This document shows positions 52,148 to 64,000 of a stretch of DNA of 64,000 nt, piece by piece (positions within the stretch are counted from its first letter, which is position 1; each line of letters opens with the position of its first letter). The notes under the pieces were generated by a model, which saw nothing but the letters and a program-made list of their open reading frames with translations, ran no database searches and was not told where the DNA came from. The stretch is from positions 7,017,001-7,081,000 of the forward strand of contig NZ_CP019724.1 of NCBI RefSeq assembly GCF_002005225.1, given 5' to 3'. This DNA is from Streptomyces pactum (GTDB taxonomy: Bacteria > Actinomycetota > Actinomycetes > Streptomycetales > Streptomycetaceae). The position numbers were made by a program, and so were the translations under genes.

Positions 52148-52257
52148 GCCCGGCAGGTCCCGCCGCGGGCCGGACCGCGAACCGGCGCGCGGCACCGGCG
52201 GAGCCTGTCGCGTCGGGGTGCGTCTGCGTCGTTTGGGCCGTTGTCAGACCGAGGACC

Positions 52258-52263
52258 TAGTCT
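52258..52263 (+). promoter_or_regulatory. Possible -10 box for leaderless start of the SMC operon
   Basis: TAGTCT ends eight bases before the GTG at 52271. No strong ribosome site precedes that GTG. A transcript beginning at or near the start codon would fit the leaderless mRNAs common in actinobacteria. Weak evidence. Confidence 0.35.
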
Positions 52264-52270
52264 GTGCACC

Positions 52271-53797
52271 GTGACTTCGCCTGCATCGACGGACAGCGTT
52301 CCGCCCCAGCTCAGCGCGGGGCCGCGCCCTGCCCCGGGCCCGGCCGCCGACGAGGGACTGGCGCGGCGGCTGCGCGCGCTCGCCTGCACGGCGCCGCTGC
52401 ACGACCTCGACGCGCGCAAGGCCAACCTCGCGGGTGAGTACTCGGTCTACGGCATGGCGGAGGTCGCCCTCGCCGCCATCGACCTCGTCACGCTGAACAT
52501 GGACTTCGACACGGGCGCCGACCACGACCAGATAGTGGCCCGGCTGGTCCCGCGCGTCGCCGCCCAGGCCCCGGCGCGGCCCGCCGCCGAGCACGAGCGG
52601 GTGGCCCGCTGGGTCCTGGAGAACCTGATCAACGTCGGCAGCGTCGACCGCGGCTTCCGCGCGGTGTACGGCACCTTCGGGCCGGACGGCACCTACGTGC
52701 GCCGCGACTACGACTTCAAGCTCCTCGAAGAGGTGCCCGGCCCCGGCGGCACCGTCTACCTGCGCACCACGGACGAGGCGGTCAACGTCCTCGTCGGCGC
52801 CCTGGACACCGACGTCACCAGCGCCCAGATCGCCGCCGAGGTCAAGCTGGAGGTGCTGATCAGCCGCGGCCGCCTCGCCGACGCCCAGCTCGCCGCCGAA
52901 CAGGCTCGGTACCGGACCGTGCAGTACTCGGAGACCCTGCGCAGGGCCCTCGACGCCACCCGGCGCAACGTCCGCGCGGTGGACTGGCTCAGCGCCGTGC
53001 CCGACATGATCGCCGAGGCGCTGGACCACGTCGCCGACCGGTACCGCCACGAGAACGCCATCCTCACCAACATCCGCAAGGCGCGCGACGAGTCCGAGGA
53101 CCTCGAGCACAAGCGCCGCGCGGCCGAGCTGGTCGACATCGTCAAGGACTGCATCCGCCGCCACACCCAGCTCCAGTCCCGGCTCCTGGAGGCGGGCCCG
53201 CTCTTCCGCGCCGAACAGGACCGGCAGGCCTTCGCCACCCCCCTGACGACCTCGGGCCTGGACCTGTACGGCCACCTCGTCGCCCCCGTCCTGCCGTTGC
53301 CCCTGGAGCGGGCGCTGCGTGTCACCGACGCCTTCTTCGCGCGGGGCACCGGTCTGCGTACGCCCGTCTCCGTCCGGGTCGGCGACCTCGTCGACATACT
53401 GCTGACCCCGCCGGTGGAGCGGGAGCACCTGGGCGCCGAGATGCCGGAGCCCGACCTGATCGCCACCCCGGACGACAGCCGCTTCAGCGAGGAGCAGCTC
53501 GCGGCGGCCATGGAGCTGCTCGACCTGCCGCACGACGCCCCGCGCCGGCTTTCCGGGCTGCTGGCCGACGCCCGTGCCAGGGACGCTGAGCTCCCGTACC
53601 TCGTGGCCCTGCTGGCCGTCCACGCGGCCAGCCCGCCGGTCGGCACCGCCTACCGGCAGGGCGAGCCGAAGCTGCTGTTCGCCGTGGACGACGGCACCGA
53701 GCTGGACGACCCCGAGTTCGGCGGCGCCGACCTCATCGTCGGCACGGCACTGCTGGACGCGGCCGGGATGGCCGCGGACCGCACGGAGGCGGCATGA
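52271..53797 (+). CDS. Predicted kleisin-type (MksF/JetA-like) subunit of an SMC complex
   Basis: 508 residues from the GTG at 52271. N-terminal helices (about 25-140; CTAPLHDLDARKANLAGEYS, VYGMAEVALAAIDLVTLNMD, HERVARWVLENLINVGSVDR), a central region with DYDFKLLEEVPGPGGTVYLR and then long helices (about 180-310; AAEVKLEVLISRGRLADAQL, VADRYRHENAILTNIRKARD, VDIVKDCIRRHTQLQSRLLE) that could clamp an SMC neck. The position as the first gene before a winged-helix protein and an SMC-like ATPase matches the kleisin of MksBEF/Wadjet operons. Sequence identity with known kleisins was not tested. The stop overlaps the next mini-ORF (ATGA). Confidence 0.6.
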   Translation: MTSPASTDSVPPQLSAGPRPAPGPAADEGLARRLRALACTAPLHDLDARKANLAGEYSVYGMAEVALAAIDLVTLNMDFDTGADHDQIVARLVPRVAAQAPARPAAEHERVARWVLENLINVGSVDRGFRAVYGTFGPDGTYVRRDYDFKLLEEVPGPGGTVYLRTTDEAVNVLVGALDTDVTSAQIAAEVKLEVLISRGRLADAQLAAEQARYRTVQYSETLRRALDATRRNVRAVDWLSAVPDMIAEALDHVADRYRHENAILTNIRKARDESEDLEHKRRAAELVDIVKDCIRRHTQLQSRLLEAGPLFRAEQDRQAFATPLTTSGLDLYGHLVAPVLPLPLERALRVTDAFFARGTGLRTPVSVRVGDLVDILLTPPVEREHLGAEMPEPDLIATPDDSRFSEEQLAAAMELLDLPHDAPRRLSGLLADARARDAELPYLVALLAVHAASPPVGTAYRQGEPKLLFAVDDGTELDDPEFGGADLIVGTALLDAAGMAADRTEAA

Positions 53798-53925
53798 GCG
53801 ACCACCCCACGCACCGGCGTCGGGACCGGCACGGCGAGCACGAGCACCAGCAGCGCGAGCACCCCCAACGACAGCCGCAACAGCAGCAGCAACAGCGCCA
53901 GCACAGCGAGGAGTACCGACCGTGA
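53794..53925 (+). CDS. 43-residue His/Gln/Arg-rich mini-protein inside the SMC operon
   Basis: ATG at 53794 (GGAGG four bases upstream), TGA at 53923-53925. The start overlaps the preceding stop (ATGA) and the stop overlaps the next GTG (GTGA), so all three genes are translationally coupled. Composition is extreme: it opens MSDHPTHRRRDRHGEHEHQQ, contains a Q-run region RQPQQQQQQRQ and ends SEEYRP. The GAGGAG within its last codons serves as the ribosome site of the next gene. It has no signal peptide or membrane segment. It may be a disordered linker protein or merely a translated bridge. Confidence 0.6.
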   Translation: MSDHPTHRRRDRHGEHEHQQREHPQRQPQQQQQQRQHSEEYRP

Positions 53926-54803
53926 CCGAGCACGTCGACCGGAGCGAACCGGAGGCGGGTGCCGTGCCGGCCACCGCGGCCGTCACGCCCGCCGACGCCG
54001 CCGACGCGGCGCGGCTCGTCGCCTTCGGCCTCCAGCCCAAACTGCTGCCCGCGCGTGACCAGGAGTACGCCGACCTGCTGCGCCGCTACCGCGAGGACCC
54101 GCCCTTCGCCCGGCTCGCCGACGCCGTGGCGGCCGGCCTCGGGCTGGTCGTCCTCGAGGTGTCCCCGCGCGCGGGGATGGCCGTGACCGCCGCCGAGGAC
54201 TCGGTGTTCGCCGTCCGCATGGGCGACTACGCGCGGCGTGCCGCCACCGACTCCGGCGACCGCTTCCTGCACGGCCTCGCGCACCTCGCCGTCGCCGCCA
54301 TGGCCTACCCGCGCCCCGAGGACCTCGCCGACGACGGCTACATCGGCCGCGTCACGGTCAACGGCGTGGACGCCTTCGTCCGCCAGGCCTGCCGGAAACT
54401 CGAGGAGCGGGCGGAGCGGCAGGGGGAGAACACGGACCCGGCCACCGACGCCCCGGGCCTGGAGGCCGCCTGGCGGATCTGGGCCCGGCGCAGCTCGACC
54501 GGCGCCACCAAGGACGCGCGTAGACTCCCCGGCTCCACCACCGGCATCGTCGGCAAGGCCGCCGCCTTCCTCACCGAGTCCGGCTTCCTCCAGCGCACCG
54601 GCGACGACAACGGCGGTACGTACCGCACCACGGCCCGCTACCAGCTCCAGGTGCGCGACATGGCGGGCAGCGCCGCCATGGCCGAGCTGCTGGACCTGGG
54701 TGTCGTCCCGGTGACCGACGGCACGGCGACGCTGCTGCCCGCCGAGGACACGGAGGACCTGGATCTGGTGGCCGACGCCGGACTGCCGTTCCACGCCTCC
54801 TGA
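53922..54803 (+). CDS. Predicted winged-helix (KITE/MksE/JetB-like) subunit of the SMC complex
   Basis: 293 residues from the GTG at 53922. An Asp/Ala-rich head, then VAFGLQPKLLPARDQEYADL, LVVLEVSPRAGMAVTAAEDS, a helical middle (FLHGLAHLAVAAMAYPRPED) and a likely winged helix (about 180-275; AAWRIWARRSSTGATKDAR, TTGIVGKAAAFLTESGFLQR, NGGTYRTTARYQLQVRDMAG). Size, helical/winged composition and place before the SMC gene fit KITE-type subunits. Low-confidence homology; context is strong. SMC follows after 49 bp with a C-run (54808-54815). Confidence 0.62.
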   Translation: MTEHVDRSEPEAGAVPATAAVTPADAADAARLVAFGLQPKLLPARDQEYADLLRRYREDPPFARLADAVAAGLGLVVLEVSPRAGMAVTAAEDSVFAVRMGDYARRAATDSGDRFLHGLAHLAVAAMAYPRPEDLADDGYIGRVTVNGVDAFVRQACRKLEERAERQGENTDPATDAPGLEAAWRIWARRSSTGATKDARRLPGSTTGIVGKAAAFLTESGFLQRTGDDNGGTYRTTARYQLQVRDMAGSAAMAELLDLGVVPVTDGTATLLPAEDTEDLDLVADAGLPFHAS

Positions 54804-54852
54804 CATCGCCCCCCCCGCACCCCCGCTTCACGAAGACTTACGAGAGTCCGCC

Positions 54853-57800
54853 ATGTACGAGCTGTCCCGGGTCCGCCTCTACTCCATCGGACCCGCCGGT
54901 GCGCGATACGCCGACACCGTGCTTGACCTGCGCGGTGTGGGCGAGCCCGTGCCCGACCCCGCGCCCACGCAGGCGGAGTTCTTCGAGGAGGAGCCCGTCG
55001 GCCCGCCGCGCCGGCCCGCACCCGCCGGCGTGCTCTTCCTGGAGAACGGCGGTGGCAAGTCCGTGCTGCTCAAGCTGATCTTCTCGGTGATGCTGCCGGG
55101 TCACCGCAACACCCTGGGTGGCGCCAGTTCCGGCGTGCTGCGCAAGTTCCTGCTCGCCGACGACTGCGGACACGTGGCGCTGGAGTGGCAGCACGTCCAG
55201 ACCGGAGAGTGCGTCGTCGTCGGCAAGGCCAGCGAGTGGCGCGGGCGCCAGGTCTCGGGCGACCCGCGGAAGTTCGCCGAGGCCTGGTACTCGTTCCGGC
55301 CCGGTCCCGGACTGACGCTGGACAACCTGCCCGTCGCCGAGGCCACCGCCGTACGCCCGCCCGTCGAGGGCGTCTCCGGCGCCCAGGGACGGCGGCGCAC
55401 CATGAAGGGCTTCCGGGACGCCATCACCGAGGCCGGGAAGGCCTACCCGCACCTCGAGGTGCACTGGGAGGAGATCCACGACCGCTGGATCGAGCACCTC
55501 GGCGACCTCGGCCTCGACCCGGAACTCTTCCGCTACCAGCGCGAGATGAACGCCGACGAGGGCGAGGCCGCCGGCCTCTTCGCGGTCAAGAAGGACTCCG
55601 ACTTCACCGACCTGCTGCTGCGCGCCGTCACCGACACCCGCGACACCGACGGACTCGCCGACCTGGTCGGCGGCTTCGGCAACAAGCTGGGCCGGCGCGC
55701 CGAGCTGATCGCCGAACGCGACTTCACCGCCGGGTCCGTGGACCTTCTCGGCCGGATCGTCGAGGCCACCGACGCCCGCACGCGCGCCCGCGACATCCAC
55801 ACCGCCGCCGAGCGCCGGACCAGGAGCCTGGCGCGCCGGCTCTCCTCGCGCGGAACCCAGGAACGGGGCCGGGCCGGCGACCTCGCCCAGCGGGTCACCG
55901 CCGCCGCCTACGCCGTCACGCACGCCGAGTCCGCGCGGGACCGCAGCTCCCTCATCGCCGCCGAACTCGCCTACCGGCACGCCTCGCTGGCCCTGACCGG
56001 GGCCGAGAAGGCCGCCGCCGCGCAGAAGCGCGAACTCGCCGACGCGCGCACCCTGCACTCCGCCTGGCAGGCCGCCGAGGCGGTCCTGCGGCACCGCGCC
56101 GCCGCCGACCGCGTCGCCCGCGTGTCCGCCGCCATCCAGGAGGCCGAACGGGACGCCGCCCCCGCACTCGCCGCCCGCGCCAAGGCCGCCGTCGACCTCG
56201 TCCGCGCCCTGCACGCGGCGGCCGGGAAGGCCGAACACCACGCCAACGAGGAGGAGGAGCGGTCCGCCGCCCTCCAAGAGGTCAGCGACGCCGCCCACCG
56301 GGACTCCACCACCGCGGCCACCGAGGCGCAGCGCGCCCGCAGCGAGGCCGGGCATCTGCGCCAGCGCCTCACCGAGGTCGAACAGGAGACCGCCGAGGCG
56401 GTCCGCGCCGGCTGGCTCGACGACAGCGCGCCCGACGCCGACCCCGCCCGTGCCGCCCTCGCGGCCAGCGACGCCGAGAAGACGACCGTGGCGGCCTGGG
56501 ACACCGCCCGAGAGGCGGCACGCCGGGCCACGGAGCACGCGCGTGAGGCCGCCGCCGCGGAGAGCCGCGCAGAACTGACGGCGGCCCGCGCGGCGGACGC
56601 CGCCACCGCGGCCGAGCGCGCCCACGAGGCCGAGCACCGCACGGCCCGGGCCCTGACGGCCGAGGAACGGCTCGCCGAACTGCTCGGCCTGGACGCCGGG
56701 ACCCGCCCGGGCATCCCCCAGCCCCGCCGGGACGCGGACCGTGGCGACCGGGCATCCGCGCCGCCCAGCGCACCGGAGGGCGCGCTGACCCCCGAGGAGC
56801 TCGACCGCTTCGCCGACGAGCTGGGCGGGCTGCTCGAGGACACCGTCTCCTCAGCCGAACGCCAGCTCTTCGAGCTGCGCACCGCCGCCGCCGACGACTC
56901 CCGCATCCTCGGCGCGCTCGGCGACGGCGGACTGCTGCCGCCCGGCCCGGACGTGCTGGCCACCGTGGAGTTCCTCGGCGAGCACGGCATCCCCGCCCTG
57001 CCCGGCTGGCGCTACCTCGCGCAGGCCGTCGACCCCGCCGACCACGCGCGCGTGCTGGCCGCGCGGCCCGAGCTGGTCGACGGCGTGATCATCACCGACC
57101 CCGACTCGCACACCCGCGCCCGCGACGTCCTCGGCGACGCGGCCCTGCTGCCGCGCTCCGCCGTCGCCGTCGGCACGGCCGCCGCCCTGCTCGCGCCGAC
57201 CCCGGCGCCGGACTCCGACACCGGGGACGTCTTCCTCGTACCGCCGAACCCCGCCATGCACGACGAGCACGCCGCCGACGAGGAGCGGCACGCGCTGCGC
57301 GCGCGGGCGACGGAGCGGGACGAGGAGATCCGCGCCCTCGCCGCCCGGCTCGGCAAGGACCGGGAGCTGGCGGCCCGGCTCTCCTCCTGGCGCGCCGGCT
57401 GCCCCGCCGGACGCCTCGCCGAACTGGCGCGGACCGCCGAGGAGGTGCGCTCCTTCGCCGAGGAGACCGAGGCCGAGCTGACCGAGGCGCGCACCGTGCG
57501 GGCCGAGGCCGACGAGAGTGCCGCCGAGGCCGTACGGATGCGGGACGAGCGGCAGGAGGCCGCGCAGAAGGCCCGCCGCGCCGCCGACGCCCTCGCCGGA
57601 CTCGCCTTCCGGCTGCGCGAGCGCGCCGGCTGGCAGGTCAGGCTCCGCGAACTGGCCGACGAGGGCGCCGAGGCCGAGGCCCGCGCCCAGGCTTGCCTGG
57701 AGCGGGCCCGCGCCGCCGACGAGGACCGCCGCGCCGCCCAGCGGGCCGCCGACGACGCCCGACGCACCGCCCGCACACTGCGCGCCGAGCGCTCCGAGAT

Positions 57801-59520
57801 CGCCGGCGCCCCCGACGACGTACCGCAGGACGCGCCGGACGACGGCACGAGCGCGCCGAAGACGTCCCTGCCCGCCCTCCGCGAGGCCTACCGTGCGGCC
57901 TCCCAGCTCTACGAGAAGGTCGGCGTCGGCGCCGACCTGCGGGCCGAACAGGCCCGCGCGGAGAGCGACGAGAGCGCGGCCCGCGCCGAACTGGACCGGC
58001 TCAGCAACAAGGTGCGCACCAGGGCCGGGCAACTGCTGGAGTCGCCCGACGGCTCCGACGGACCGTCCCGGCAGGCCGCCGCCGCCCGCGCCGAGGAACT
58101 GGTGCAGCTCCTGGAGACCCGCATGTCGAGCGCGAGCGAACAGCTCGGCCGGCTGCGCGGCGAGGCCGAACGGCTCGCGCCCGAGGACGGCGACGCCCAC
58201 ACCGAACTCCCCGAGGAGCTCCTCCCGCGCGACGCCGAACACGCCCAGACCCTGCTGCGCACGGCGACCGCCGAACTCGCCGCCCGCAACGAGGCACTGA
58301 GGCAGGCCCGCGAGGCCCACGCCGAACTGCTCGACGCGCACCGGGCCGCCGAGGACGCGGCCGGCGGGTTCGACGAGGTCGCCGCCATGCTCCGCGACCT
58401 GCTGCGCGAGCAAGCGCCCGACGAGGAGCGGGAGGAGTCCGAGCCCTATCCGGGCGGTCTGGAGGAGGCCCGGCAGTCCGCCGCCGAGGCCCGCCGCTCG
58501 CTGCGCGGCTGCGCCGCCGACCTGTCCTCCGCCGAGGCCGCCGTGCGCGAGGCGAGCGACGTCCTCGTCCGGCACGCCAACTCCACCCGCTACGAGCAGG
58601 TGCGCACCCCGGCCCGCCAGCAGATCCGCGAGCTGCCAGCCTCCGCGCTGCCCGAGCACGCGGGCAAGTGGGCGGACGCCTTCGCGCCCCGCCTCCGTGT
58701 CCTGACCGACGAACTGGCCCAGTTGGAACGCAACCGCGACTCGATCGTGGACCGGCTGCGCGGCCTGGTCGAGTCGGCCCTCGCCACGCTCCGCTCCGCC
58801 CAGCGCCTCTCCCGGCTGCCGGAGGGCCTCGGTGAGTGGTCGGGGCAGGAGTTCCTGCGCATCCGCTTCGAGGAACCCGACCAGGCAACACTCACCGAGC
58901 GGCTCGGCGAGGTCGTCGACGAGGCCACCCGGGCCGCCGTGAAGAAGAACTCCGACCTGCGCCGCGACGGCATGTCCCTGCTGCTGCGCGGCGTCGCCGC
59001 CGCCCTTCAGCCCAAGGGCGTCGCCGTCGAGATCCTCAAGCCCGACGCCGTACTGCGCGCCGAGCGCGTCCCCGTCGGCCAGATGGGTGACGTCTTCTCC
59101 GGTGGCCAGCTCCTCACCGCGGCCATCGCCCTGTACTGCACGATGGCCGCGCTCCGAAGCAACGACCGGGGCCGCGACCGGCACCGGCACGCAGGCACCC
59201 TGTTCCTCGACAACCCCATCGGCCGTGCCAACGCCACCTACCTGCTGGAGCTCCAGCGCGCGGTGTCCGACGCGCTCGGCGTCCAGCTCCTCTACACCAC
59301 CGGCCTGTTCGACACGACGGCGCTGGCCGAGTTCCCGCTGGTGATCCGGCTGCGCAACGACGCCGACCTCAGGGCCGGTCTCAAGTACATCAGCGTGGAG
59401 GAGCACCTGAGGCCGGGACTGCCCCAGCCGGCCCCGGCCGGTGACGGCGCAGGCGAGACGGTGCACAGCGAGATCACGGCGACCCGGATGTTCAGACGGC
59501 CCACCCAGTCACCCGCCTAG
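54853..59520 (+). CDS. Large SMC-like ATPase (MukB/MksB/JetC type)
   Basis: 1555 residues. The N-terminal head has APAGVLFLENGGGKSVLLKL (P-loop ENGGGKS, Lys69; Leu replaces the first P-loop Gly). Long Ala/Glu/Arg-rich coiled coils run from about 300-640 and 800-1270. Between them is a hinge-like folded domain (about 655-800; GIPALPGWRYLAQAVDPADH, LVDGVIITDPDSHTRARDVL). The C-terminal head carries the ABC signature VFSGGQLLTAAIALYCTM (1415-1419) and Walker B GTLFLDNPIGRANATYLLEL (Asp1453), then QLLYTTGLFDTTALAEFP. The residue after the Walker B Asp is Asn1454, not the usual Glu. It is the motor of the operon; DNA loop extrusion or plasmid restriction is possible. The end overlaps the convergent Rieske gene by 12 bp. 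Confidence 0.85.
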   Translation: MYELSRVRLYSIGPAGARYADTVLDLRGVGEPVPDPAPTQAEFFEEEPVGPPRRPAPAGVLFLENGGGKSVLLKLIFSVMLPGHRNTLGGASSGVLRKFLLADDCGHVALEWQHVQTGECVVVGKASEWRGRQVSGDPRKFAEAWYSFRPGPGLTLDNLPVAEATAVRPPVEGVSGAQGRRRTMKGFRDAITEAGKAYPHLEVHWEEIHDRWIEHLGDLGLDPELFRYQREMNADEGEAAGLFAVKKDSDFTDLLLRAVTDTRDTDGLADLVGGFGNKLGRRAELIAERDFTAGSVDLLGRIVEATDARTRARDIHTAAERRTRSLARRLSSRGTQERGRAGDLAQRVTAAAYAVTHAESARDRSSLIAAELAYRHASLALTGAEKAAAAQKRELADARTLHSAWQAAEAVLRHRAAADRVARVSAAIQEAERDAAPALAARAKAAVDLVRALHAAAGKAEHHANEEEERSAALQEVSDAAHRDSTTAATEAQRARSEAGHLRQRLTEVEQETAEAVRAGWLDDSAPDADPARAALAASDAEKTTVAAWDTAREAARRATEHAREAAAAESRAELTAARAADAATAAERAHEAEHRTARALTAEERLAELLGLDAGTRPGIPQPRRDADRGDRASAPPSAPEGALTPEELDRFADELGGLLEDTVSSAERQLFELRTAAADDSRILGALGDGGLLPPGPDVLATVEFLGEHGIPALPGWRYLAQAVDPADHARVLAARPELVDGVIITDPDSHTRARDVLGDAALLPRSAVAVGTAAALLAPTPAPDSDTGDVFLVPPNPAMHDEHAADEERHALRARATERDEEIRALAARLGKDRELAARLSSWRAGCPAGRLAELARTAEEVRSFAEETEAELTEARTVRAEADESAAEAVRMRDERQEAAQKARRAADALAGLAFRLRERAGWQVRLRELADEGAEAEARAQACLERARAADEDRRAAQRAADDARRTARTLRAERSEIAGAPDDVPQDAPDDGTSAPKTSLPALREAYRAASQLYEKVGVGADLRAEQARAESDESAARAELDRLSNKVRTRAGQLLESPDGSDGPSRQAAAARAEELVQLLETRMSSASEQLGRLRGEAERLAPEDGDAHTELPEELLPRDAEHAQTLLRTATAELAARNEALRQAREAHAELLDAHRAAEDAAGGFDEVAAMLRDLLREQAPDEEREESEPYPGGLEEARQSAAEARRSLRGCAADLSSAEAAVREASDVLVRHANSTRYEQVRTPARQQIRELPASALPEHAGKWADAFAPRLRVLTDELAQLERNRDSIVDRLRGLVESALATLRSAQRLSRLPEGLGEWSGQEFLRIRFEEPDQATLTERLGEVVDEATRAAVKKNSDLRRDGMSLLLRGVAAALQPKGVAVEILKPDAVLRAERVPVGQMGDVFSGGQLLTAAIALYCTMAALRSNDRGRDRHRHAGTLFLDNPIGRANATYLLELQRAVSDALGVQLLYTTGLFDTTALAEFPLVIRLRNDADLRAGLKYISVEEHLRPGLPQPAPAGDGAGETVHSEITATRMFRRPTQSPA

Positions 59521-60657
59521 CCCGGCCCCGCCGCCGGGGCCGGCGAGCCGTTCCAGCAGCCACTCGTGGAAGATCCCGATGTGGTGCTCGGTCGGCACGA
59601 GGACCCCGCCCGCACGGTAGGCCCGCGACGCCATGGCGGGCTGGGTCCGCTCGCACGCCTCGAAGTCCTGCGTGTTGACCCGGTGGAACAGCTCGACCGA
59701 CTTCGACAGGTCGGCCCCGGACGCCACGACCTCGGGTGCGTACAGCCAGTCGCACTCGACGACCGTGCGGTCCTCGGCGAGCGGGAACATGCGGTGCAGG
59801 ATCACGTGGTCGGGCACGAGGTTGACGAAGACCGTCGGCTTGACGGTGACGGCGTAGTAGCGGCGGTCCTGGTCCTGAGACACCTCGGGCAGCCTGCCGA
59901 GGCCCTCGCTGCCGTCGACCGTGAAGCCCCGCACCTCCTCGCCGAACTCGGCGCCGTGGCCCACGTAGTACTGGGCCGCGTAGCCGTCGGCGAACTCCGG
60001 CAGCACGTCGGTGAGTTCGGGGTGGATGGTGGCGCAGTGGTAGCACTCCATGAAGTTTTCGACGATCAGCTTCCAGTTCGCCCGCACGTCGTACCTGACG
60101 CGCCGCCCGAGCGCCAGGTTCTCCGTCCCGTACCGCTCGATCGCGGCCGGGTCTCCGAGCCGTTCGACGACCGCGCCCCGCACCGTCTCCTCGAAGGAGG
60201 GCGGCGCCTCGGCCAGGCACACCCAGGCGTAGCCGAGCCACTCGCGCAGGGCCACCCCGACCAGGCCGTACGCCGAACGGTCGACGTCCGGCATCCGCGT
60301 CAGGCCGGGCGCGGCGACCAGCCTGCCGTCGAGGTCGTACGTCCACGCGTGGTACGGACACTGGAGGCTGCGGCGCACCTCGCCGGAGTCCGCCACACAG
60401 AGCCGGGCTCCGCGGTGCCGGCAGATGTTGAGGAAGGCGCGCAGCTCACCCGCGCGGTTACGCGTGATGACGACGCTCTCGCTCCCGACCTGCACGGTGC
60501 GGAAGGCGCCGGGCCGGTCCAGGTCGGCGCCGCGGACGGCACAGAACCACATCGACTCGAAGACGTGCCGCTGTTCCTGACGGAAGACCTCCGGGTCGGT
60601 GTAGTAATGGCCCGGCAGGGTCGCGATGAGGCTGGGGGACAGGGGAGTCGTCGTCAC
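59509..60657 (-). CDS. Rieske oxygenase alpha subunit, glycine-betaine monooxygenase-like
   Basis: 382 residues from the GTG at 60657 (GAGGAG seven bases upstream); the start overlaps the MSOX stop. The Rieske [2Fe-2S] domain has [14 protein letters not shown] and [17 protein letters not shown] (CxH...CxxH). The mononuclear iron site is in [15 protein letters not shown]. It resembles GbcA/stachydrine demethylase-type subunits that strip a methyl group from betaines. Neighbouring sarcosine-oxidase and dimethylglycine-type genes support glycine betaine as substrate. No matching reductase lies inside the window. Confidence 0.85.
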
Positions 60658-61859
60658 GTGCGTGCTCCTCGGGCGGGCGCGGCGGCGGTGGGGGTCCCCC
60701 CGCTCGGGCGGAGCCGAGGGTGGGGGCGGGCAGGGTCGAACAGACCGATGGGGTGGGCGGTGGCGCCGGTCAGGGCCAGGTCGGCGAGGATCTCGCCCAC
60801 GACGGGCGTGAACTTGAAGCCGTGCCCGGAGAAGCCGCAGGCCACGGTCACCGAGCCGGGGTGCGCGGGGTGCCGCGCGATGACGAAGTGCTCGTCCGGC
60901 GTGGTGGTGTACATACAGGTCGCGGCCTTGAGGAAGGTCCCGGGCAGGTCCGGGACACGGCCGGACATGTGCGCGGCCATCGCCTCCACCTCGTGGTCGT
61001 GCACGGTCCGGTCGATGGTCTCCGGGGTGGTGGCCCGCCCCTTGCGGAAGAAGGCGACCTTGGCACCGTGATCGGGACCGTCGATGGCCGGGAAGCCGTA
61101 GACCTGGACGCCGGCCGCGTCCTCCCAGACGTAGATCGGCTGGTTGGCGGGGAGGAAGGGCCGGGTGCCGTTCCTCGGCTGGAACCAGTACATGACCTGC
61201 CGCTCGACCGTGAAGGGCACCCCCAGGTCCGTCAGCAGCCGCGGTGCCCAGGCGCCCGGGCAGACGACCAGTTGGGAGGCGGTGTAGGTGTTCTCGGCGG
61301 TGTGCACCCGCACGCCGTCCCGGTACGGCTCCCACCGTGTCATCGGCTCGTCGAAGTGCAGGTCGGCGTCCTGCCGGGTGGCGAGCTGGAGGTGGGCCGC
61401 GACCGTGTTCTCGGGGCGCAGGAGACCGGCCTTGGCCTCGTGGAGCGCGACCTCGTCGTCCGCCGGCGTGAGCGTCGGGAAACGGCGGCGGATCTCCCTG
61501 GCGTCCAGGATCTCGTGCGGCAGGTCCCACTCGCGTGCCGAGCGCAGCGAGCCGGAGACGGTCCACGAGTCGGGCCGGCCGACCATCACCCCGCCGCAGA
61601 GCAGGGCGATGTCCCGGCCGGTGGCCCGCTCCAGGTCCTCGTACAGCTCGTAGGCCCGCAGGAGGAGAGGTACGTACGCCGGGTCCTCGAAGTACGACTG
61701 CCGGGTGACCCGGGAGCCGCCGTGGCTGGAGCCCCGGTTGTGCACCGGGCCGAACTTCTCCAGACCAAGTACGCGGGCGCCCCGCGCGGACAGATGGTGG
61801 ACGGCGGCGCTGCCCATGCCGCCGAGCCCGATGACGATCACGTCGTAGGTGGGGGACAT
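60654..61859 (-). CDS. Monomeric sarcosine oxidase / N-methyl amino acid oxidase
   Basis: 401 residues. The N-terminal FAD fold is [20 protein letters not shown] (GxGxxG), with [37 protein letters not shown] and [16 protein letters not shown], whose Cys is the covalent flavin site of [24 protein letters not shown] closes the fold. It oxidises sarcosine or related N-methyl amino acids to the amine, formaldehyde and peroxide. AGGAGG precedes the ATG. The tail after about 375 is Pro/Ala-rich. Confidence 0.9.
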
Positions 61860-61870
61860 CGGAGCGCCTC

Positions 61871-64000
61871 CTAGCGGCGGATGCGGGTCATCTTCGGGTC
61901 GAACAGCGGCTCGTCGGCGACGGTGGCGGGCACCTTCTCGCCGAAGTACTCCACGTGCACGCCGGTGCCGGTGGCCAGTCCGGCCGGGAGCCAGGCGTAC
62001 GCGACACAGCGGCCGAGCGTGTAGCCGTACGCGGCGCTGGTCACGTAGCCGGAGGGCGTGCCGTCCACGTGGACCGGTTCCTTGCCCAGGACCACGGCGG
62101 CCGGGTCGTCGAGGAGGAGGGCCGTGAGGCGCCGGGCCGGTTCGCCCGCGCGCCGCAGCGCGGCCCTGCCGACGAAGTCCGCCTTGTCCGCGCGGACCGC
62201 GAAACCGACGCCCGCCTCGTACGGGTTGTGCTCGTCGGTCATGTCGGTGCCCCAGGCCCGGTACCCCTTCTCCAGCCGCAGCGAGTTGAAGGCGGACCGC
62301 CCGGCCGCGATCACGCCCAGGTCCCGGCCGGCCTCCCACAGCGTGTCCCAGAGCCTCAGCCCCACATCGGCGCTGGTGTACAGCTCCCAGCCGAGTTCAC
62401 CGACGTAGCTCAGGCGCATGGCCGTGACGGGTACGTGGCCGACGTACGTCTCCTTGGCGCGGAAGTAGCCGAACGCCTCGTGCGAGAAGTCGTCCGGGGT
62501 CAGCGGCTGGACGAGGTCGCGGGCGAGCGGGCCCCAGACGCCGACGCAGCAGGTGCCGGAGGTCGTGTCCCTGATGTGGACACCGCCGGGCGCGTGGCGC
62601 GACAGGTGGTCGAGGTCGGCGGGGGAGTTGGCGCCGACCTGGAAGCGGTCGGGGCCGAGACGGGCCACGGTGAGGTCGGAGCGGATGCCTCCGGTCTCGT
62701 CGAGGAGGAGCGTGTAGGTGACCGCGCCGGGCTTCTTGCGGAGGTTGTTGGTGGTCATGCGGTCGAGGAAGTCGAGGGCTCCGGGACCGGTGACCTCCAG
62801 CCGGCGCAGCGGGGTCATGTCGTACAGGGCGACCCTCTCACGGGTGGCCAGCGCCTCGGCCGCCGCGACGGGGGACCAGTGACGGGCGGACCAGGCGTCG
62901 CGGCCGGGGAGGCGCAGGCCTTCGGCGAGTCCGGCGTTGGCCTCGTACCAGTGCGGGCGCTCCCAGCCGCCGCCCTCCAGGAAGTACGCGCCGAGTTGCT
63001 GCTGCCGTGCGTGGAAGGGGCTCACCCTGAGCGGGCGTGGCCCCTCAATCGGCTGCAGGGGGTGGAGGACGTCGTACACCTCGACGAACTGCTGTGAACC
63101 GCGCTCACGGATGTACGCCGGTGAACGCTGCGCTTCTTCGAAGCGCGTGATGTCGCACTCGTGCACGTCCAGCGACGGCCGCCCGTTCACCATCCACTCG
63201 GCGACGGCCTTGGCGACACCGGCCGAGTGGGTGACCCAGACGGCCTCCGCCAGCCAGAAACCCCGCAGCGCCCGGGACTCGCCGAGGACCGGCATGCCGT
63301 CCGGGGTGAAGGAGAAGACACCGTTGAAGCCCGTCTCGATGCAGGCCGCCCGCAGGGCGGGCATCAGCCGCCGGCAGTCCTCCCAGCTCGGGGCCCAGTC
63401 GTCCGGGGTGAAGGGGTAGGACGAGGGCATCTCCATGTTCCGGTCGCGGGCCTCGTCGTAGGCGGGGACGTCGAACGGGTCGACGGGCAGCGGGCGGTGG
63501 GCGTAGGAGCCGATACCGAGGCGGTCGGTGTGCTCGCGGAAGTACAGGTCGCGGTCCTGAAAGCGGAGGATCGGCTTCGACGCCTCCGCGGTGGCGCCGC
63601 TCAGCTCCGGCAGCGGTCCGGTCCTCGCGTACTGGTGGGCGAGCGGTTGCAGGGGGACGTCGACCCCCGCCATGCCGCCGACGACCGGCCCCCAGAAACC
63701 GGCCGCGGAGACCACGTGGTCGGCCGGGAAGGTACCCCGGTCGGTGACGACCCCCGTGACCCTGCCGTCCCGCCGCTCGATACCGGTGACCGTGTGCCGG
63801 TCCAGGAAGCGGGCGCCCCGCGCGGTGGCGCGGTCGAGCTGGGCGCGGGACGCGTGCAGGGCACGGGCCAGGCCGTCCTCGGGCGTGTGGAAGCCGCCGA
63901 GCACCACCGACTCGTCGAGGAGCGGCCAGAGTTGCTTGCAGCGGGCGGGGCCGACGATCTCGCCGCGCACGCCCCAGGCGGCGGCGTGACCGGCCCTGCG
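61871..64000 (-). CDS. GcvT-family FAD-dependent dehydrogenase (dimethylglycine/sarcosine type), N-terminus beyond window
   Basis: About 710 residues are visible; the 5' end lies outside. The remaining FAD/DAO part has [40 protein letters not shown] and [20 protein letters not shown], then [20 protein letters not shown]. The aminomethyltransferase-like C-terminal half (about 370-700) has [40 protein letters not shown] and [20 protein letters not shown]. This is the dimethylglycine/sarcosine dehydrogenase architecture, which passes the methyl group to tetrahydrofolate. It is 11 bp upstream of the sarcosine oxidase gene, in one operon. Confidence 0.9.

Follow-up and report, generated by a model that had tools for sequence, protein, structure and literature searches.

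Several machines are built around an ATPase of the structural maintenance of chromosomes (SMC) kind. SMC–ScpAB works on the chromosome; Smc5/6 and RecN are SMC machines for DNA damage, and Smc5/6 restrains circular DNA without cutting it. In passages of PMC10586767, the MksBEF system of Pseudomonas aeruginosa is described as probably being the Wadjet system JetABCD minus JetD, and as acting on the chromosome. Here, a 64,000-nucleotide stretch of the Streptomyces pactum chromosome (NZ_CP019724.1, positions 7,017,001 to 7,081,000; the window) was analysed, which holds a jetABC operon related to type III Wadjet systems. The JetABC set is core in the Streptomycetaceae and is preceded by a promoter element of DNA-damage type, and neither the operon nor the genome gave a match to JetD. 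From the sequence comparisons, we rate as evenly poised the reading that the operon encodes a Wadjet III-derived SMC complex that has lost JetD and has been kept for chromosome maintenance under DNA damage.

The initial annotation of the window, made from its letters, described an SMC-like Wadjet set of three frames (508, 293 and 1555 residues) without an adjacent nuclease. The frames and their A–B–C order were confirmed, and kinship with Wadjet was borne out by PADLOC profiles with matches far beyond chance: the first protein matched the JetA of type III Wadjet (JetA3; PDLC00567, E = 3.1e-186, residues 24–506) and the third matched its JetC (JetC3; PDLC00588, E = 0). Pfam and NCBIfam gave no significant match for JetA, JetB or JetC. 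Pfam searched up to E = 1 gave no Muk/Mks or other family for the three, the sole match (LytR_C against JetB) being attributed to chance. JetB also had no significant match in PADLOC, as was the case for two B proteins of related copies, and phmmer showed homology between it and the B proteins encoded in JetABCD loci. A profile search against solved structures gave no match for JetA and only weak or coiled-coil matches for JetB and JetC; a poor structural model weakly suggests a winged-helix nature for JetB.

The lack of an adjacent nuclease extends to the genome: JetD_C (PF09983) and JetD3 (PDLC00594) gave no match in the whole single-contig 8.55-Mb sequence. Among 150 Streptomyces genomes, JetD_C was matched in 18 and JetD3 in 21 (22 in the union of the listings), and in the loci that were read the JetD-like genes were encoded with a JetABC of their own, as separate JetABCD paralogues. 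It could be supposed that JetABC works as a complete Wadjet in trans, its nuclease being either a JetD encoded elsewhere or an unrelated enzyme, and a nuclease of an undescribed family would indeed escape the profiles used. Because neither JetD model finds a gene in this genome, and because JetD-like genes occur in 22 of the 150 genomes and, in the loci read, come with their own JetABC, we consider this very improbable; the initial annotation had offered defence with an unlinked effector as one of two options, and with JetD as that effector it is disfavoured.

JetA was matched in 147 of the 150 Streptomyces genomes (no match in G050, G073 and G079, two of which are 78–82% complete) and in 120 of 121 Streptomycetaceae genomes, representing 16 of 16 genera (the miss is G610). 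JetB was matched in 143 of the 150; the misses are the same three genomes plus G112, G116, G120 and G139, which are drafts of 540–1010 contigs. Both counts take any match: G121, for example, has a weak JetA (3e-71) yet a core-like JetB (79%). The frequency of JetC rests on the loci read. It is present in 79 of 80 loci from near relatives (near loci), the exception (L062) being cut off by its contig end, and a long JetC frame is present in 18 of 20 loci from the wider family (family loci), with L236 fragmented and L250 having none. In the genome of L250 (G012) a rearrangement has split the operon: JetA, whose match is limited to residues 9–464 and which is thus truncated, lies at 5.74 Mb, and JetB lies at 9.00 Mb near a chromosome end. 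A loss of both B and C was rejected, JetB being found 3.3 Mb away. Elsewhere in the order, JetA matches were found in two of 15 genomes (45% and 33% identity). Class-wide, they were found in 44 of 296 genomes, made up of 28 Streptomyces, one match at E = 8e-4 and 15 genomes of one family (f20); the f20 orthologues have 61–64% identity and at least one f20 genome (G297) has no match.

The divergent JetA loci that were read number 27, of which 20 were chosen by JetA match and seven by JetD match; JetA identity is at most 57% among the matches listed. All of A, B, C and D are present in sixteen of the 20 chosen by JetA match. The other four are uninformative: the L163 and L171 sequences stop within C or short of it, the JetA of L170 is broken and no C was found there, and L172 shows JetA alone. 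For the seven chosen by JetD match (L173–L175 and L226–L229, with L227 and L229 being two copies in one genome) the A–B–C–D content is by choice and says nothing. Seven JetD frames of the divergent copies were tested directly against JetD3 or Pfam, and five of five in PADLOC were JetD3. A D profile built from nine JetD of these copies gave no match in 115 core loci (80 near, 20 family and 15 f20); of the 79 near loci that have C, 71 extend at least 1,200 bases past it, as do ten of the 15 f20 loci. The initial annotation had also considered that relatives might carry a JetD-type gene near the operon; none was found for the orthologues, and only the paralogous systems have one. In a JetA tree of 71 rows (midpoint root, long branches flagged by the program), the 46 D-less rows (31 Streptomycetaceae, 15 f20) group in a single clade with support 98/96, and the JetD-bearing rows fall outside it. 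A single loss of JetD would account for this most simply.

Of 33 single-contig genomes, 28 have the gene at most 25% from a chromosome end (median 15%, computed with rounded genome sizes) and oriented toward that end; the other five do not. Ratios of nonsynonymous to synonymous substitution rates (dN/dS), taken as pairwise counts between core pairs, were 0.05–0.20 for JetA, 0.12–0.29 for JetB and 0.09–0.32 for JetC, where the JetC comparison with L032 spans 566 codons; a JetD value was left unused owing to overlong frames. Judged by these ratios, JetABC is under purifying selection. Its core status, mostly conserved chromosome position and purifying selection favour the other option of the initial annotation, a chromosomal complex.

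The promoter and the family-wide conservation were absent from the initial annotation, and a damage-type promoter before JetABC is a new observation. When the upstream regions of the window and 34 loci were aligned, a conserved block was seen to end 7 bases before the GTG start of JetA in the window (TTGTCAGACCGAGGACCTAGTCT). Its layout, TTGTCRG-N10-TAnnnT, is that of the RecA-NDp promoter. With the element only 7 bases before the start, the transcript is probably leaderless. TTGTCAG-N10-TAGTCT is the only exact match in the 64-kb window; when one mismatch was allowed, two sites were found, with 0.70 expected. Near loci have the promoter in exact form in 52 and with one mismatch in 27 of 80 cases; the miss, L079, shows the block in the upstream alignment, outside the scanned stretch. 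A second set of 80 core loci, which includes the window (L001) and may overlap the first in species, gave 53 exact, 26 one-mismatch and one two-mismatch sites, and the 20 family loci gave nine exact and six one-mismatch sites. Random windows from core loci gave 45 exact and 25 one-mismatch sites in 20,000, a count that includes the JetA promoter itself, so that the reversed pattern is the cleaner control. At least 145 of the 150 genomes have a match with at most three mismatches, which is supportive only, as sites away from JetA are counted too.

In the whole genome, TTGTCRG-N10-TAnnnT occurs at 34 sites against one for the reversed pattern; two of the sites are identical copies near both ends. 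Of 30 sites examined, 17 lie 5–10 bases ahead of the start of the open reading frame (ORF) that was picked, with recA at 7 bases. The genes behind the sites encode RecA, UvrB, UvrA (43 bases away), a UvrD-type helicase, DnaX, MGMT, MgsA/RarA, an exonuclease III-type enzyme, a RadA-like protein (judged from domains), a sigma factor of SigX5 type and a helicase whose Hel308-type matches fall below the cut-off; the domain scan covered 20 of the 30 genes, of which six had no match and two had weak unrelated matches only. A RecA-NDp/PafBC-type regulon thus appears to exist in S. pactum. According to excerpts of PMC5087735, the RecA-NDp promoter precedes recA and the ultraviolet-induced SCO6735 in S. 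coelicolor, and excerpts of PMC5087735 and PMC8223512 indicate that it resembles the PafBC site. PafBC is activated by single-stranded DNA, as stated in part of PMC11804915.

A chromosomal complex could also serve, like MksBEF, as a second condensin for housekeeping, engaged in general folding or segregation, with the damage promoter inherited or a minor input. Such a role would suit a set that is core, single-copy as a rule and at a conserved chromosome place, and passages of PMC10586767 describe chromosomal action for JetD-less relatives such as MksBEF. We nevertheless consider it unlikely, since the promoter block, which housekeeping would not need, is kept in exact or one-mismatch form in 79 of 80 core loci, and since the genome also has the ScpA of a canonical SMC–ScpAB (at 6,675,395; the search covered ScpA). 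With ScpA encoded elsewhere in the genome, JetABC would be an additional SMC complex.

Across 37 of 37 aligned core rows, JetC keeps its ATPase motifs (Walker A, signature and Walker B) without change. Walker B has Asp-Asn, which is also present in 22 of 22 aligned rows of JetD-linked JetC; the idea that the Asn marks a dead ATPase was rejected because it is common to all 22 of these rows. Compared with JetD-linked copies, JetC has no extra domain and differs by three stretches of 4–16 residues only, one of them of 14 residues (163–176). JetB ends, behind a variable stretch, in an AGLPFH tail that is present in 96 of 98 Streptomycetaceae core loci and was not seen in f20 or JetD-linked JetB in the loci read. 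Synonymous codon variation in the tail argues for selection on the peptide, which looks like a docking peptide.

Taken together, the core status of an SMC set that has no nuclease, its intact motor, the damage-type promoter and the repair genes that keep it company point most probably to chromosomal work under damage. We infer formation of a complex, control and induction by PafBC, loop extrusion, the chromosome as substrate and a repair role, and events may have run as follows. JetD would have been lost once, before the Streptomycetaceae diversified. DNA damage or stalled replication would expose single-stranded DNA, and a PafBC-type activator would then switch on the leaderless promoter alongside recA, uvrA, uvrB and other repair genes. 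Dimers of JetC, closed by JetA with JetB, would be loaded onto DNA and, driven by ATP, would extrude loops or hold them. As JetD is lacking, its cleavage could not be the end state, and the complex would instead compact or tether chromosome arms that are damaged or being replicated. A fuller version, in which JetABC is a core, nuclease-free, damage-inducible SMC complex that arose from a plasmid-destroying Wadjet by loss of the nuclease, has kept its damage-type promoter and handles damaged linear chromosomes as a bacterial working counterpart of Smc5/6, is put forward tentatively and seems to us more apt to fail than to hold.

Several observations weigh against this chromosomal reading. In five of the 20 family loci no site was found, even with one mismatch allowed. 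A promoter of this type also lies before some of the 27 divergent, mostly JetD-bearing loci (five exact, six one-mismatch), and the 15 D-less f20 loci have no exact and two one-mismatch sites, so that the promoter and the loss of JetD do not coincide. The split operon of G012 and the broken JetC of L236 indicate that the set is dispensable in some species. In addition, a first search, described in part of PMC9380542, did not find the M. smegmatis PafBC motif to be conserved in S. venezuelae.

The presence of the promoter type before JetD-bearing systems suggests that the promoter is old and, with it, perhaps the control of Wadjet III by damage, and leaves room for a nuclease-free defence role. 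JetABC would then be induced by damage or single-stranded DNA from incoming elements and would compact or silence circular DNA uncut, as has reportedly been proposed for human Smc5/6. The relatives of JetABC are anti-plasmid systems, and five of the 27 divergent JetABCD-type loci have the promoter in exact form. The family-wide conservation and purifying selection, however, contrast with the occurrence of JetD-like genes in 22 of 150 Streptomyces, and few plasmid records carry a match (four, the best at 53%); this role therefore seems to us quite unlikely.

The features of the operon are listed in Table 1.

Table 1. Features of the jetABC operon of S. pactum, in window positions.
Feature	Positions	Strand	Remarks
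RecA-NDp/PafBC-type promoter element TTGTCAG-N10-TAGTCT	52241..52263	+	7 bases before JetA start
JetA3-type protein, expected kleisin subunit	52271..53797	+	508 residues, GTG start; PADLOC PDLC00567
Spacer ORF (mini-ORF), 43 residues	53794..53925	+	Overlaps JetA stop and JetB start; no conserved gene
Likely ribosome-binding site of jetB, GAGGAG	53908..53913	+	By eye, found at this place in relatives too
JetB-type protein, expected KITE subunit	53922..54803	+	293 residues, GTG start; homologous to B of JetABCD
AGLPFH tail peptide, near JetB C terminus	54777..54794	+	Residues 286–291; conserved in Streptomycetaceae
JetC3-type SMC ATPase	54853..59520	+	1555 residues; PADLOC PDLC00588
Walker A of JetC, NGGGKS	55045..55062	+	Identical in 37/37 core rows
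ABC signature of JetC, FSGGQL	59095..59112	+	FSGGQ in 37/37 core rows
Walker B of JetC, LFLDNP (Asn where Glu is usual)	59200..59217	+	LDNP in all aligned rows

In the window, the junction with JetA is ATGA (at its stop) and that with JetB is GTGA (at its start). The mini-ORF between them had been counted as a member of the operon. It was rejected as a gene because its counterparts in the 79 relatives with JetB differ in length and sequence and some of them begin away from the JetA stop. By eye, only its last codons recur among these relatives, and they hold the likely ribosome-binding site of jetB. The convergent neighbour reported past JetC was found, with an ORF that ends at 59509, overlaps JetC by 12 bases and is of Rieske oxygenase type by eye. 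It belongs to a minus-strand run (59509–63970) of Rieske-type oxygenase, sarcosine-oxidase-like and dimethylglycine-dehydrogenase-like genes, judged by eye from their translations, that resembles amine (betaine-type) breakdown.

A hidden fourth gene was sought by clustering ORFs around 25 Streptomycetaceae and 15 f20 loci and was rejected, as no universal recurrent neighbour was found. Pfam gave no nuclease domain for ten neighbours, six of which had no significant domain. A GntR-type neighbour is present in 78 of 80 near loci against three of 20 family loci. In the f20 loci (L206–L218, L220, L221), 13 of 15 have a divergent gene with a TerD domain on the upstream side of JetA. In 48 of 142 loci (L234, L246, L243, L055, L110 and others) a gene for a NIT/HATPase sensor, co-oriented with the operon, was found 7–10 kb past the start of JetA, some of the 142 being too short to reach that far; the window holds other genes there. 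The small genes after the sensor, in loci judged by eye, have a conservon-like layout.

Among the divergent type III systems, the exact promoter sites lie before L161, L163, L167, L168 and L174, four of which have JetD (the L163 locus ends early). The JetD-like genes of G049 and G129 are mirrored near both chromosome ends, as for terminal inverted repeats, and in G090 the whole JetABCD set (L227, L229) is mirrored in the same way.

If the chromosomal reading is true, a family that makes antibiotics and has been studied intensively possesses a second SMC complex that was overlooked and stands behind a damage-type promoter. JetABC is not named in excerpts of two Streptomyces chromosome papers (PMC8410768, PMC13121528), and a literature search, mostly of titles and abstract openings, gave no paper describing the complex among the matches listed. 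The locus bears on how defence SMCs and housekeeping condensins convert into one another, a question made directly testable by the JetD-less clade and JetD-bearing paralogues found side by side in cultivable Streptomyces. The count of 34 sites bears on the PafBC-type damage response of Streptomyces, which is left open in the relevant part of PMC9380542.

Compared with known systems, JetABC shares with type III Wadjet the JetA3 and JetC3 profile matches, the A–B–C order and the Walker B Asp-Asn; it differs in having no JetD match in operon or genome and in being a family-wide core set rather than patchy. With the MksBEF/MukBEF condensins it shares an SMC with an expected kleisin and an expected KITE protein, no nuclease and the kleisin–KITE–SMC gene order, whereas its three proteins have no Pfam match and no solved relative by profile, and its JetA branches from within type III Wadjet JetA sequences. 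Its expected SMC–kleisin–winged-helix architecture is also that of Streptomyces SMC–ScpAB. The promoter has the element and the leaderless spacing seen before other genes of the RecA-NDp/PafBC regulon here, such as recA at 7 bases, but carries AC where most sites have TG after TTGTCAG. The likeness of JetABC to Smc5/6 and RecN is an analogy of working, not of membership.

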